Source: Verrucomicrobiia bacterium
GTDB taxonomy: Bacteria > Verrucomicrobiota > Verrucomicrobiia > Verrucomicrobiales > DEV007
Assembly (NCBI GenBank): GCA_030425385.1
Contig: JAUIAH010000036.1
Span: forward strand, 1-64,000
Reading direction: 5' to 3'
DNA: 64,000 nucleotides
Under the pieces are notes generated by a model. The model had not been told where the DNA came from. It did not search any database and saw only the letters and a list, made by a program, of their open reading frames with translations. Position numbers and translations under genes: made by a program. This document shows positions 9,977 to 15,974 of this stretch, one piece after another; positions within the stretch are counted from its first letter, which is position 1; every line of letters starts with the position of its first letter.

Positions 9977-10208
9977 GAAGCTCAGCGTAAGGAAACGAAC
10001 GGGGCCACAGCAACGGAAAACGCTTCCATCCCGCGTGAACAAAGAGAGGTGGTAAGGAAGGGGGCGTCTGCGGAAGCGGTGGCGGCAGTGCGTGAGGCTG
10101 GAGGGGCGTTGTCGTTGGCGGCGCTGTTGCGGTGTCTAGGGTCGAAGGGGTTTGTGGATGGATTCTTTGTCTTGACGCTACGGATCAGGATGGATTCGAT
10201 CAGGAGTG

Positions 10209-10901
10209 ATGAAGTATTTCGATTATCATCTCCTTTCGGTGATTGGTCTCTTGATCCTGTCGCTTAGCCCAAACCGAGCGGAAGATAAGGAGAGTTCTGT
10301 TAGTAATGGTGAATGGGTTTCCTTGTTTGATGGAAGCTCGCTGGACCATTGGCAGCGGGGAAATGGAACTCCCGTGGACTCGGGCTGGGTGATCACGGAG
10401 GAGAAGGCCTTGTTCCGCTCTGGAGCCACGGGGGATATCTTTACCAAAGAGATCTATGGTGACTTTGAACTCGAGTTCGAGTTCAAGATGGCAGAAGGTT
10501 CTAACAGTGGGGTCAAGTATCGCTTCGGCGACTATGGTGGCAAGTTGATTGGGGCCGAGTTTCAGATTCTGGACGATAGCAAACATCCCGATGGAAAGAA
10601 TGGGGCCGATCGCCTCACCGCTTCGCTATACGAAGTGATTCCTCCTTACGAGTCAAAGCGCTTGAAACCGTTGGGCGAATTCAACCGAGCCCGAATTGTG
10701 GCGCGTGGCTCGCGGATCCAACACTATCTCAATGGTGTGCTCGTGGTAGACGTGGATCAGCAGACAGATTCATGGAAGGATGCGTTGGAGGATAGCAAGT
10801 TCCGGGCGAGTAAGGATTTCGCGACGAAACCGGGACGCATCATGCTACAGGATCACAATCACCCCGTGTGGTTTCGTCAGATTCGTATCCGGCGACTCTA
10901 G
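10209..10901 (+). CDS. DUF1080 (3-keto-disaccharide hydrolase-like) secreted protein
   Basis: This 230-residue protein has a signal peptide (about residues 1-24), then the DUF1080 opening WVSLFDGSSLDHW. The core EFEFKMAEGSNSGVKYRF and a C-terminal VDVDQQTDSWKDA segment follow. The fold is a concanavalin-like sandwich; some members hydrolyse 3-keto-disaccharides formed by Gfo/Idh/MocA enzymes. AGGAG lies immediately upstream, overlapping a GTG at 10206, so GTG 10206 or ATG 10209 could be used. It faces the sulfatase divergently across about 230 bases. A second DUF1080 gene lies at 47565-48302. Confidence 0.88.
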   Translation: MKYFDYHLLSVIGLLILSLSPNRAEDKESSVSNGEWVSLFDGSSLDHWQRGNGTPVDSGWVITEEKALFRSGATGDIFTKEIYGDFELEFEFKMAEGSNSGVKYRFGDYGGKLIGAEFQILDDSKHPDGKNGADRLTASLYEVIPPYESKRLKPLGEFNRARIVARGSRIQHYLNGVLVVDVDQQTDSWKDALEDSKFRASKDFATKPGRIMLQDHNHPVWFRQIRIRRL

Positions 10902-10928: not shown

Positions 10929-11864
10929 TTACGGCGGTGGCACGATCCAGCTTGCTTGCAAGCGATAGAATTGCTTCTCTAGCGGTTGCACGAAGTCTTC
11001 GAGGACTTGAGCGACCAGGGAGTTTCGCGTGAAGCCTTCTGCGCCGCTATCACCGAAGCGGATCCAATTCTCGTGGTAATGAGTGGCATACTGCATCTCG
11101 ATCAGCACCAGACGCTCTGGGAGTCGTGTGAGACGGAGTTCTAACCGTTCCTCATCGATCCATGAGAGAGAGAAGGGAGAGGGCCCGGCAAGCGGCGACC
11201 ACGGATCGGTACCAAGAGCAAATTCCATCTGGTTCGTGAGGCCGTCACCGTCTGGATCGGCGAGCCATGCGGAGATGGAGGCATCATTGAGATCCTCTGG
11301 AGTGAATTGGGTCGCTTGCCATTGAGACGGTAAGAGCACCGGGAGGGGGGCGTCCACGGGGGCGCTGGTGAGGTAGGGAGTTCCTTCGGCGTCGCTGAGG
11401 GTTCCGAGGATGGCTTCTGCGCGATCGGGTGTCACGACCCAGGTGAGGGGGAAGGCAAGATTGGAGGCGGCAGGCCAGATCCAGCTTTCAGAAGTGAGCA
11501 GGATCCATTCGCTACTCTGTGCTCGGGCCGAGTATCCCCAGATGTAAGCCTGTTGCCCGAGGGGAGTCGCGCTATTAGACGATGCTACCACGTGAGAGGA
11601 GACGAACAAACGGTCCGACGGTCGGAAGACGGTCCGGTCGGCGGCGTGCCAGTGCGTGTGCCAATCCGCCGTATTAGCAGGGGTGGGTGTGAAACCGGAA
11701 GCGAACGCCCCGACTTCGAGAACGAAGGTGGCATCCCACGCAGCGCCGGAACTCGTTTCATGGGCGCGGTTTGATAGGCCACGCCAATTGACTTGTCGTG
11801 CTTGTGCGAGGATGGTCAATCCAAGAGTGAATGCTAGACCGAGGAGGAATACTTGAAAACGCAT
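10929..11864 (-). CDS. Secreted protein B1 of duplicated cassette (unknown function)
   Basis: From the ATG at 11862-11864 the protein has about 311 residues with a clear signal peptide (MRFQVFLLGLAFTLGL...). The body starts VNWRGLSNRAHE and contains FVLEVGAFASGF, a YIWGYSA stretch, and a Ca-binding-like DPDGDGLTNQMEF followed by GTDPW. It ends with a beta-domain finishing in FYRLQASWIVPPP. It is a clear paralogue of the protein at 13493-14425. The start lies 8 bases after the stop of A1, so the two are one transcript. The DPDGDG-GTDP segment resembles thrombospondin type-3 calcium loops. I recognise the general verrucomicrobial style but no named family. Confidence 0.75.
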   Translation of the reverse strand: MRFQVFLLGLAFTLGLTILAQARQVNWRGLSNRAHETSSGAAWDATFVLEVGAFASGFTPTPANTADWHTHWHAADRTVFRPSDRLFVSSHVVASSNSATPLGQQAYIWGYSARAQSSEWILLTSESWIWPAASNLAFPLTWVVTPDRAEAILGTLSDAEGTPYLTSAPVDAPLPVLLPSQWQATQFTPEDLNDASISAWLADPDGDGLTNQMEFALGTDPWSPLAGPSPFSLSWIDEERLELRLTRLPERLVLIEMQYATHYHENWIRFGDSGAEGFTRNSLVAQVLEDFVQPLEKQFYRLQASWIVPPP

Positions 11865-11872
11865 GGCGGGAT

Positions 11873-13408
11873 TCAAGGGGACGAGTGCGGGCGCTCTCCT
11901 CTCGGCACGTAGACCCATTCTTCCCCATGAACTTCGAGAATCTGCGCCTGTGCCGTCTCCTGATTCTCGGGGTGGAAGGATAGTGATAGGGTCACGCGTC
12001 GTGGCGGGATAGTTTGGATGGAGGAGGTTCCCGCCGTGACTGGTTGCCACCTATGTTGTGGACGGGTCTCTTGGGGAAAGAGTTCAGCCAAGCGATGAAA
12101 GTTCGCGCTCGCACGGTCGATGTAGGCGTGCGTGATCTCTCCTGAATCAGGACTTTCAAGAGCGAAACAAGCATAGCGCCGAGAATCGCTATAGGCGTGG
12201 TTATAATAGTCGTCCGGGCGCAGTAGCAGGCGCATGAGCGTGGGTTGCGATGGGCGGATCCTGACAAATTCCTCATAGGGCATCTCGCAATAGCCCACGA
12301 GGGCCTCCCAGTTGAGCTTTGGCTGTGGACCTGACAAGTCCACCATGGCCAGGAAGCGTTGCCCGGAGACGTCCGTGCCTTGGGCGGCGTAGTGCCGCCG
12401 ATCATCGATCGTGACAATGTCCCAACGATGGATGTTGGAGACTTCGGCGACGGGATGATCATGATCTTGGTAATAGTGTTGGAGGCGGTCGCGCTTGGAG
12501 GAGCCCCCAAGGATGTGGCGGGCTCGTTCTTCAAGAGAAGGCGCGCTGAGAAAGTCGTGAATCACTTGCTTCGCCAACGCGGCCTCTTGTTCCGCCGCTT
12601 GATCCTCCTGAAGTTCGGTCGATACTTTCTGAGAGAGTGGATCATTCTTGGCGTCGTCGCGATGAAGAAGGCTGGGCACCATGACCATGGCTCCACACAC
12701 GGAGATGATTCCCAATCCTAACAGACTGAATGCGGTTTTCCGAATGAACTGATTGTAAGCTGCCAGTCGATTGTTTTCGGAGAGAGGATCTGCAGTGAGT
12801 TTGGGCGAAATGGCATCGTCCTGGGGGAGGCGCTGCAAGAGCCCTCGCACGAATTGAATCGGTTGGCCTTGGTATCGGAACGGCGTGAGGGTGAGGAGTC
12901 CGCGCCATTCGCGTTCACCCTCAGAAGGGAGCGCAATTTCCTCGCTGAAGGGGCCACCGATCGTCGTCATGCGAAGAAAGGCCTCGTGCAGATGCGCGAG
13001 CACAGACGGATCGAGGAAGCCCACCCACTCGGATCGCTGGCAAAGGTGAACGGGTCGCTGAGTGATCTTTTCCCACGTGGTTGGATCGTCTGTCGAAATC
13101 CACTGCCCGTGCCCATCGAGCAAGAACGCTACCTCCTCTCGATGCTCAGGTTCTCGCAATTGCTTGGGCCGCCCATCCATCATGGAGGCGACTCGGAGAC
13201 GCTCATCTCGGACCTTGCCCATGCGGTCTCTGGGTCTGGCGCTTTCTGCGGATTCCTGCGTCGACGAGAGAAAGGCATCGAGCCAGGCAGCGTCCTGGGG
13301 ACTTAACGAGGCGCGGCTACGTTGTAGGTCTGCAAGGACCGCGGCGGCTTCTTTCGCCATAACGGCCTTATCGTCGTCAAGGTTCGGGGTAGGACGGAAA
13401 CGGCGCAC
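11873..13408 (-). CDS. Membrane protein A1 of duplicated cassette (unknown function)
   Basis: The 511-residue protein starts at a GTG and opens M-RRFRPTPNL. The first 230 or so residues look cytoplasmic, followed by one membrane helix near residues 232-252 (FSLLGLGIISVCGAMVMV). A helical segment ending in ARHILGG and a periplasmic beta-rich domain with LSGPQPKLNWEALVGY and RPDDYYNHAYSDS come next. It is a paralogue of the protein at 14430-15893. The single-span architecture resembles anti-sigma or receptor-like proteins, but nothing in the sequence proves that role. It is co-transcribed with B1, probably from the AT-rich region at 13409-13492. Confidence 0.72.
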   Translation of the reverse strand: MRRFRPTPNLDDDKAVMAKEAAAVLADLQRSRASLSPQDAAWLDAFLSSTQESAESARPRDRMGKVRDERLRVASMMDGRPKQLREPEHREEVAFLLDGHGQWISTDDPTTWEKITQRPVHLCQRSEWVGFLDPSVLAHLHEAFLRMTTIGGPFSEEIALPSEGEREWRGLLTLTPFRYQGQPIQFVRGLLQRLPQDDAISPKLTADPLSENNRLAAYNQFIRKTAFSLLGLGIISVCGAMVMVPSLLHRDDAKNDPLSQKVSTELQEDQAAEQEAALAKQVIHDFLSAPSLEERARHILGGSSKRDRLQHYYQDHDHPVAEVSNIHRWDIVTIDDRRHYAAQGTDVSGQRFLAMVDLSGPQPKLNWEALVGYCEMPYEEFVRIRPSQPTLMRLLLRPDDYYNHAYSDSRRYACFALESPDSGEITHAYIDRASANFHRLAELFPQETRPQHRWQPVTAGTSSIQTIPPRRVTLSLSFHPENQETAQAQILEVHGEEWVYVPRGERPHSSP

Positions 13409-13458
13409 GACACTAGGAAAAGTTGTGAATTTTACATAGTTAAAACAACTGAGTATTC

Positions 13459-13467
13459 AAACTATAA
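13459..13467 (-). promoter_or_regulatory. Shared element TTATAGTTT upstream of A1
   Basis: On the minus strand TTATAGTTT lies about 50 bases before the GTG of A1, inside an AT-rich gap. The same 9-mer occurs about 53 bases before the homologous GTG of A2 (15947-15955). Conserved identity and spacing suggest a promoter or operator kept since the duplication. No transcript evidence is available. Confidence 0.4.
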
Positions 13468-13492
13468 TTTCCATTCATTTTAGGGATAGGAG

Positions 13493-14425
13493 TCAAGAGG
13501 GAGGGACCAACCATTCAGCCTGGAGTCGGTAGAATCGGCGAGGCAGCGTCCTCGCCAGGTGGATTACCTCCTGAATCCGCAGGGTCTCCGTGACGAATCC
13601 CTCTGCCCACAGGTCGCCTGACCCAAGCCAGTGGCTGTGATCGTCGGAGTAGTGGATACTGACAGAGATGAGTCGATCAGGAAGGCGCGCAATGCTCAGG
13701 CCCACGCGGTCCTCATCAAGCCAGTTGAGTTCGAAGGTTGAGAGGGCGCTCTGAGGCACCCAGGGATCCGTGCCCAGGGCGAATTCGAGTTGGTTTGGCC
13801 AGCCATCTTGATCGGGGTCCGCGAGCCAGGCACCGATGGCCTCATCGCCGATCTCCTCTGGGGTGAAGTGGGCAGACTGCCAAGCCGATGCCAGGATGAC
13901 CGGAATGGAACCTTCTGCGGGGGCCGTGGCGATGTAGGGAGTACCTTCTTGATCCCCTAGCGTGCCGATGACGGTCTGGTCCCTCGAGGCCGAAACGACC
14001 CAGGTCTTGGGAAATGGGGAGCTTCCGGCCCGGGGCCAGATCCAAGTCTCGGAATGGATGAGAATCCATTCATCGGATCCAGATTGAGCATCATAACCCC
14101 AGATATAGGCCTTGCCGCCGAGAGGGGTGGTTGGGTTGGAGGATTCCACCACGAAAGAGGACACGAACAGGTTCTCCTCTTCTCGATAGGAGGTGCGATC
14201 AGCCACCTGCCAATGGTCCTGCCACTCAGCCGTGTTTGAGGGCGTGGGAACGAAGCCATCCGAGAAGGAGCCGATCTCGAAGACAAACGTGGCGCCCAGG
14301 GGGGTGCCGTCGCTCATCTCATGGGCTCTCCCGCCGATGCCGCGCCAATTGATTTGATGGGCATGGCTAGACAGCGTGAGTAGGAAGGAGAGGATAAGGA
14401 GAATGATAGGAGAGATCGTGGGCAT
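13493..14425 (-). CDS. Secreted protein B2 of duplicated cassette (unknown function)
   Basis: This 310-residue protein has a signal peptide (about residues 1-22), then INWRGIGGRAHE, FVFEIGSFSDGF, YIWGYDAQSGSDEW, DPDQDGWPNQLEF and GTDPW. It ends in FYRLQAEWLVPPS. It aligns along its length with B1. It starts 4 bases after the A2 stop, the same close spacing seen for A1-B1. The DPDQDG loop keeps acidic residues at alternating positions, so calcium binding is plausible. The C-terminal FYRLQ ending recalls the YYRVRQ end of the large protein at 42987-47438, which suggests a shared C-terminal beta-domain. No function is claimed. Confidence 0.75.
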   Translation of the reverse strand: MPTISPIILLILSFLLTLSSHAHQINWRGIGGRAHEMSDGTPLGATFVFEIGSFSDGFVPTPSNTAEWQDHWQVADRTSYREEENLFVSSFVVESSNPTTPLGGKAYIWGYDAQSGSDEWILIHSETWIWPRAGSSPFPKTWVVSASRDQTVIGTLGDQEGTPYIATAPAEGSIPVILASAWQSAHFTPEEIGDEAIGAWLADPDQDGWPNQLEFALGTDPWVPQSALSTFELNWLDEDRVGLSIARLPDRLISVSIHYSDDHSHWLGSGDLWAEGFVTETLRIQEVIHLARTLPRRFYRLQAEWLVPPS

Positions 14426-14429
14426 GGCA

Positions 14430-15893
14430 CTACTCCTCGGAGGACACAGCAGAGTGGGTGAGCAATGGGGGAGCGGGCATGTAGATCCAGTCTTCCCCTA
14501 GCACTTCCATGATGAGCGCTTGGGAATGAGGCTTGCCCTCGTCTGCAAAGGCAATCGAAAGGGTGACCCGTCGCGGCGGAACGGTGGGTGCGGCCAAGGT
14601 GCCAACCGTGAGTTGCCGTGGTGAAGGTGTGAGAGGATTCTTATCGGGAAAGAGCTCTGCGAGACGGCGGTAAGCCGAGCTGAAGCGTTCGACATAGGCG
14701 TGCATGGATGTGCCGGTGTGCGGGCATTCGAGAGTGTAGCAGGCGACCTGCCCGGAATCGCTGTAGGCATGATTATAGTAGTCATCTGGTCGGATCAGCA
14801 CGCGCATGACGGTGGGGACACTCCGTTGCTCCTGGCGAAATGCTCTCAATGGCAGTTCATTGAAGCCCACGAGGGCTTCCCAATTCAGCTTGGGTTCTGG
14901 TCCTGACAGATCCACCATGGCGAGGAGCCGTTGGCCTGCTGTATCGCTCACTTGCGCGGCGTAGTGACGACGGCCATCCACGGTAACGAAGTCCCAGTGG
15001 AGAATCGTCTCGAGCTTCTGTGAGTGATAGGCCTCACCTGCGTAGAAGGTTTCGAGTTGAGGAAGTTTCTGTTTGCCTCCGATGATGTGGCGGGCGCGTT
15101 CACCGGAGGACTCCGCAGCAAAGAAGGCGTGAATGACTTGTTGAGCGCGTTCGGCTTCTTGGGCGACTTCTTCTCCGTCCCAAGTCGAGTGATGGGTCGA
15201 AGGCGTCTCCTCTTGAGACTTCTCAAGCAAGCCAGGGACCACGATCATGGTCCCACACAGAAACACAATACCTATCATAAAGACGACTAGGGCAAGCTTC
15301 CGCACCACGCTTTCGAGACGTCCGAGCGCGTTGTCTTCCTTGAGTGGTACTGGTGTGAGCTTTGGATCGATCAGAAAGCTCGTAGCCCGGATCTGCACAC
15401 TGCCCTCGGCATCGAGGCACAGGCCATCGGATGGTTCCTTAGGTGTGAGTGTGAGGGTGCCTTGCCGCCGCCCTTTCCCTTCGATCAACGTGAATTCGAC
15501 CTCAACGGGAGCGTGGGTGACCACCATTCTCACATAGGCTTCTTGCAAGATGGTGAGGATGTCCTGGCTCTTCTCCGTGGGTTCCGCCTCAGTCGGTCCG
15601 CTGACCGATACCGCTTGGCTAGCAATTCGTTTCCAGGTCTTTGGATCGTCGACATCCAAGTGGCTCCCTGCATGGGTGAAAGCAATCCCTACCGTGATCG
15701 CATCCTCCTTGGGAAGCTTCCGCATCTTGCCGTCGAGCATGGAGGCGAGACGGGTGCCTTCATCGAGGGATTGGCCAATGAACCGTGGAGACGTTTGCGG
15801 CTTTGCGATGGAAGAGGCCTCCTCTTCATCGGGTTCCGCGAGGGCTACGGGAACGTTTTCTGTGGAGGTGAAGGTGGGATGAAATCGACGCAC
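14430..15893 (-). CDS. Membrane protein A2 of duplicated cassette (unknown function)
   Basis: Read from the GTG at 15891-15893 (VRRFHPTFTS, matching the GTG start of A1) the protein has 487 residues; a TTG at 15917 would add eight. It has a cytoplasmic N-terminal half and one membrane helix (ALVVFMIGIVFLCGTMIVV). The segment ARHIIGG and a periplasmic domain with LSGPEPKLNWEALVGF, RPDDYYNHAYSDSG, RLAELFPD and PPRRVTLSIAF follow. Long blocks are identical to A1. The N-terminal halves are less similar than the periplasmic domains, suggesting the inner part adapts to different partners. This is inference; the family is unrecognised. Confidence 0.72.
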   Translation of the reverse strand: MRRFHPTFTSTENVPVALAEPDEEEASSIAKPQTSPRFIGQSLDEGTRLASMLDGKMRKLPKEDAITVGIAFTHAGSHLDVDDPKTWKRIASQAVSVSGPTEAEPTEKSQDILTILQEAYVRMVVTHAPVEVEFTLIEGKGRRQGTLTLTPKEPSDGLCLDAEGSVQIRATSFLIDPKLTPVPLKEDNALGRLESVVRKLALVVFMIGIVFLCGTMIVVPGLLEKSQEETPSTHHSTWDGEEVAQEAERAQQVIHAFFAAESSGERARHIIGGKQKLPQLETFYAGEAYHSQKLETILHWDFVTVDGRRHYAAQVSDTAGQRLLAMVDLSGPEPKLNWEALVGFNELPLRAFRQEQRSVPTVMRVLIRPDDYYNHAYSDSGQVACYTLECPHTGTSMHAYVERFSSAYRRLAELFPDKNPLTPSPRQLTVGTLAAPTVPPRRVTLSIAFADEGKPHSQALIMEVLGEDWIYMPAPPLLTHSAVSSEE

Positions 15894-15946
15894 AGGTGGG
15901 GAAGGAACGATTGGCAAATCTACCTAACCCTTGGTATTAATGGTGT

Positions 15947-15974
15947 AAACTATAACTTTTAGAATAAACTATAG
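15947..15974 (-). promoter_or_regulatory. Shared element TTATAGTTT (with second near-copy) upstream of A2
   Basis: The minus strand reads TTATAGTTT at 15955-15947, preceded by a related CTATAGTTT at 15974-15966. The first copy sits about 53 bases from the A2 GTG. The same 9-mer stands at nearly the same distance from the A1 start. It is a candidate promoter or regulator site, seen only as a repeated motif. Confidence 0.4.

Follow-up and report, generated by a model that had tools for sequence, protein, structure and literature searches.

Four genes, all on the minus strand and in the order A2-B2-A1-B1, make up the locus described here, which lies within the window, the whole 64-kb stretch of DNA that was analysed (Table 1). 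Hydropathy indicates one membrane span each in A1 and A2, and the N-terminus of B is hydrophobic and signal-peptide-like. The members of each pair are separated by very short gaps, of 4 nt between the A2 stop and B2 and of 8 nt between the A1 stop and B1. The A2 reading frame as listed is longer than the gene given in Table 1, comprising 495 aa and reaching a TTG at 15917. Other genes neighbouring the A-B pairs in the window encode RsgA, an endonuclease/phosphatase, a sulfatase and a 3-keto-disaccharide hydrolase, the last being a PF06439 protein that adjoins B1 (10206-10901, plus strand). A domain of this kind (PF06439) is also found fused to an A-family protein at another locus (L042:253-2985, minus strand).

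Table 1. Genes, domains and upstream elements of the A2-B2-A1-B1 locus (window positions)
Feature	Position	Strand	Basis or remark
A2, bitopic membrane protein, 487 aa	14430..15893	-	Likely GTG start at 15893, aligned with A1 start
A2 transmembrane helix	15261..15317	-	Hydropathy, residues 201-219 of the 495-aa ORF; model helix 198-226
A2 NTF2-like periplasmic domain (predicted)	14865..15176	-	Model residues about 248-351, AlphaFold pLDDT mostly 67-94
A2 OB-fold periplasmic domain (predicted)	14484..14864	-	Model residues 352-478, pLDDT mostly 82-96
B2, secreted protein, 310 aa	13493..14425	-	
B2 N-domain (NWRG ... YIWGY ... W-WP)	13895..14356	-	Alignment of 17 proteins
B2 C-module, DPDxDG calcium-loop-like (TSP3-like) plus terminal segment ending FYRLQ	13511..13894	-	
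A1, bitopic membrane protein, 511 aa	11873..13408	-	GTG start
A1 periplasmic NTF2-like plus OB region (predicted)	11909..12604	-	Alignment to A2
B1, secreted protein, 311 aa	10929..11864	-	ATG at 11864
TTATAGTTT upstream of A2	15947..15955	-	1 of 2 copies in window
TTATAGTTT upstream of A1	13459..13467	-	1 of 2 copies in window

A1 and A2 are identical at 193 of 460 aligned residues (42%), with identical blocks that include LNWEALVG and RPDDYYNHAYSDS, and B1 and B2 at 160 of 306 (52%), with the common motifs NWRG, YIWGY, GTDPW, DPDxDG and FYRLQ. At the level of DNA only patches of the two A-B pairs align, at 65-71%, and the duplication is therefore either old or fast-evolving. A1 and A2 are sisters on the A tree (support 100/100), as are B1 and B2 on the tree of N-domain proteins (support 93), from which it follows that the A-B pair was duplicated as a unit. 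The GTG starts of A2 and A1 (15893 and 13408) are in homologous position, and one A-B pair was duplicated whole in this lineage, together with its upstream element. Much of an earlier note on this DNA is thereby borne out: all four genes are present in the order that it gave, its end coordinate of 15893 is the A2 start that aligns with that of A1, most of the blocks and motifs that it listed, DPDxDG and FYRLQ among them, are found in the alignments, and its picture of a single-span A and a secreted B duplicated together agrees with ours.

The upstream element, which the earlier note does not mention, is the 9-mer TTATAGTTT. The 64-kb window contains two exact copies (expected 0.00), each about 50 nt before an A start, and no further copy was found in about 0.85 Mb of this genome's loci, overlapping stretches included. 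The 9-mer is possibly an operator or promoter element; a scan for sigma-70 promoters gave no excess. A second CTATAGTTT lies about 19 nt upstream at A2, and an inverted AACTATG lies downstream at A1.

Membership and architecture of the A family

Neither A nor B, in which the earlier note had recognised no named family, has a Pfam or NCBIfam match above cut-off, and a PDB sequence search with profiles of both gave no convincing match. A is nevertheless a member of a large, undescribed and unnamed family of the Verrucomicrobiales. A profile search of this 8.0-Mb genome returned 26 A matches, and the neighbour test described below used 25 of them. Across 96 evenly drawn genomes of the phylum, searched at E 1e-12, the family was present in 9 of the 12 from the same order and in 0 of the 84 from outside it. 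Named genomes were searched with a concatenated A+B query, the matches to which are mostly to A.

The predicted layout of the family is a cytosolic N-terminus that varies between members, one membrane span, and a conserved periplasmic part made of an NTF2-like domain and an OB-fold. In the AlphaFold model of A2 the periplasmic part is confident, with a lower-confidence loop at residues 423-442 of the OB-fold, and the N-terminus is poor; in A1 the periplasmic region is matched by the profile at 11912-12607 (E 3.5e-67). The best match of the A2 NTF2-like domain is the N-terminal domain of E. faecium PBP5 (VIA Z 10.6, rmsd 2.2, 98 residues), and its OB-fold matches the N-terminal OB-fold of AspRS (Z 9.4, rmsd 2.7, 91 residues). 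Foldseek, searched with the same model, returned nothing below E 0.001, so the predicted combination of NTF2-like domain and OB-fold rests on the second-look aligner. Both folds are common, and sharing them shows no function. At the other end of the protein, a zinc-ribbon-like CxxC...CxxC N-terminus is present in 39 of 66 complete A relatives, accompanied by weak Pfam matches to zinc ribbons. The A1 and A2 sequences contain neither a CxxC pair nor a zinc ribbon, and a search of 38 genomes gave no convincing homologues of their N-termini.

A limited literature search found no described family of bitopic NTF2-OB partners, and the nearest comparisons are with proteins that share parts of this layout. 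TcaA/YvbJ proteins of Firmicutes span the membrane once, have an extracytoplasmic NTF2-like domain and often carry a zinc ribbon at the N-terminus. The A family is similar in all three respects, the zinc ribbon being frequent, but differs in the OB-fold that follows and in its linkage to genes for exported proteins, and A1 and A2 differ further in lacking the zinc ribbon. The Pfam domains of TcaA have no match in A1 or A2 and are not among the 25 families listed for 33 relatives. VirB8 is likewise bitopic, having a short segment in the cytosol and an NTF2-like domain in the periplasm, a likeness that for A is read from hydropathy and predicted fold, and a VirB8-like chain appears in the Foldseek list for A2. 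However, A carries an extra OB-fold, and no type IV secretion genes were found among the window neighbours or at the further A loci that were looked through by eye. Both TcaA and VirB8 were compared with A by architecture and fold only. The MecA_N domain of PBP5 and PBP2a resembles A at the level of the NTF2-like fold, PBP5 being the best match, but no sequence similarity to it was detected, and a transpeptidase domain is absent from A, which ends after the OB-fold and has no Pfam match.

The B N-domain, its tails and its neighbours

The two parts of B have different distributions. This genome encodes about nine full-length B relatives and a number of shorter N-domain proteins, together with many large proteins whose likeness to B is confined to the C-module; the module is common to many large secreted proteins. 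B1 has a sub-threshold match to the bacterial TSP3 repeat in Pfam/NCBIfam, the matches of the relatives of A and B in these collections are mainly to zinc-ribbon and TSP3 families, and in the PDB sequence search the calcium loop of B weakly resembles EF-hand segments. The structure model of B is poor, with a mean pLDDT of 55.

Tails attached to the N-domain fall mainly into two classes. Among 52 N-domain proteins, 29 carry the C-module and 20 a PEP-CTERM tail, with one further tail judged PEP-CTERM-like by eye. B1 and B2 have no PEP-CTERM tail, ending in FYRLQ..VPP(S/P) without a match to PF07589. Proteins that are otherwise homologous have been described as exchanging one sorting-signal tail for another, among GlyGly-CTERM, LPXTG and PEP-CTERM (PMC3237569), and on this precedent the C-module may be another, alternative signal for surface anchoring or sorting. 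At one locus (L203:5222-7436), the gene for an N-domain PEP-CTERM protein and one of the exosortase genes are close together on opposite strands.

Full-length B relatives often follow a gene for a giant surface protein, for example at L076, L081, L159 and L180, and these giants carry SdrD_B, DUF11, cadherin, lectin or LamG domains. The closest relative of B1 and B2 is itself an N-domain fused to a giant-type C-terminus (G000:C30, L172:9796-11895, plus strand). Adjacency to A is the exception: among the 29 N-domain proteins with a B-type tail it is confined to the window copies, one weak case and broken pairs. The weak case, at G000:C35 (L171), is a convergent, shortened A-like gene beside B with a profile match of 18.6 bits, and the broken pairs are in two sister species (genomes G001 and G002; loci L073 and L074). 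There broken A and B pieces are adjacent in shared synteny, through either decay or assembly error; a dipeptide-epimerase-like gene adjoins the pieces at both loci. The earlier note had named adjacency of A and B across Verrucomicrobiota as what would support its system. Strict adjacency proves rare, many B relatives adjoining giant SdrD_B, cadherin or DUF11 proteins instead, and for this reason its proposal of a conserved A-B system holds only in part; what survives is a linkage of A to exported proteins in general.

Neighbours of A genes and candidate roles

We located PEP-CTERM genes by PF07589 in four genomes of two genera and compared their positions with those of A genes. Within 2.2 kb there are 25 A-PEP-CTERM pairs against 1.94 expected, 20 of the 25 on the same strand, and within 1.2 kb there are 23 against 1.06, where the expected numbers are those for uniformly placed genes, uncorrected for phylogeny. 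No excess is seen at 2.2-5 kb or at 10-20 kb, and a mild one at 5-10 kb (12 versus 4.4). Gene neighbours were defined throughout by simple ORF calls. All six PEP-CTERM ORFs near A at the named loci (flanks of up to 10 kb) are direct neighbours, five of them from one orthologous group, and at three loci the A gene overlaps the PEP-CTERM gene by 4-8 nt.

The 26 PEP-CTERM partners collected make up 16 groups, between which no similarity was detected apart from the tail; a comparison of these partners also led us to reject the idea that they are relatives of the B N-domain. On the A tree, the label of PEP-CTERM adjacency changes at least 11 times on the best tree, with two changes forced by well-supported branches alone, and because loci were picked partly for having such a neighbour, the tree shows scatter and not rate. 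In this genome (G000), a Pfam-recognised PEP-CTERM gene neighbours 7 of 25 A genes, or 8 when one found by motif is added, so many members adjoin housekeeping genes or another A. Since gene order varies, the linkage is not that of a fixed operon. It is well supported, however, that the A family is genetically linked to exported proteins generally, above all to unrelated PEP-CTERM proteins. Tandem A-A pairs occur at seven loci from several Verrucomicrobiales, and at five of these a PEP-CTERM gene lies directly downstream on the other strand.

The resemblance to the PEP-CTERM/exosortase system (Haft et al. 2006, 2012, as cited in PMC4960237 and PMC3237569) consists in the many A relatives that adjoin PEP-CTERM genes, the five exosortases encoded in this genome and the occurrence of the B N-domain with PEP-CTERM tails. 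In contrast to that system, A is not an exosortase, and B1 and B2 end in a different tail.

The neighbours of its relatives suggest that A assists exported proteins in general or senses them, and we infer that it acts as a membrane partner of the exported neighbour. We put at about even the chance that A is a bitopic membrane partner, whether tether, assembly factor or sensor, of the protein encoded alongside it. The two genes of each A-B pair would then be expressed together, one giving a membrane protein and the other an exported one. A would sit in the inner membrane as the partner of its neighbour's product, and on the periplasmic side its NTF2-OB module would hold this product, or some feature that exported partners have in common. 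Such holding would serve the transit, sorting or assembly of the partner, whose state at the periplasmic face could be reported by the cytosolic part of A. B would be an N-domain exported protein in which the calcium-loop C-module replaces the PEP-CTERM tail. The wider proposal, in which A proteins form a general and hitherto unrecognised inner-membrane partner family, of one constant receptor type, dedicated copy by copy to unrelated exosortase-type or other surface proteins, is tentative, with the balance of probability somewhat against it.

A might instead be mainly a sensor-regulator, with the NTF2-OB part as the sensor, either of an envelope signal or of the exported partner, and the N-terminal part altering expression, without any handling of the partner. 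The combination of variable N-termini with a conserved periplasmic part would fit such a role, as would the zinc-ribbon-like N-termini of many relatives, and those of A1 and A2 had looked PAS-like by eye. Yet no PAS model matched them even at E 10, and Pfam and NCBIfam reveal no DNA-binding, kinase or anti-sigma domain in either protein, which makes this reading rather unlikely. We consider it improbable that A is a cell-envelope factor, acting for example on peptidoglycan, with its adjacencies reflecting the shared regulation of surface genes and not a working pair. The closest fold match, to the NTF2-like N-domain of PBP5, points that way, and in one family of small genomes A adjoins a gene for an 841-aa protein that by eye is penicillin-binding-protein-like; the PEP-CTERM excess, however, is concentrated in immediate neighbours, overlapping genes among them. 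A toxin system, with B as the toxin and A conferring immunity or release, has only the tight pairing and the tandem duplication in its favour and is very improbable, given that PEP-CTERM proteins also contain the B N-domain and that many surface-protein loci have this domain but no A.

PEP-CTERM proteins are numerous in these bacteria, and the factors besides exosortase that handle them are little known. In Akkermansia, 23 such proteins have been counted and the system has been called little characterised (PMC4960237). The A family of membrane proteins, which recurs beside unrelated PEP-CTERM proteins, is a concrete candidate for a missing partner, and the exchange of PEP-CTERM tail and C-module on one N-domain suggests that there may be a second signal for surface anchoring. 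If A proteins do form a general partner family, then protein sorting in Verrucomicrobiales would include a hidden component, this family of NTF2-OB receptors.
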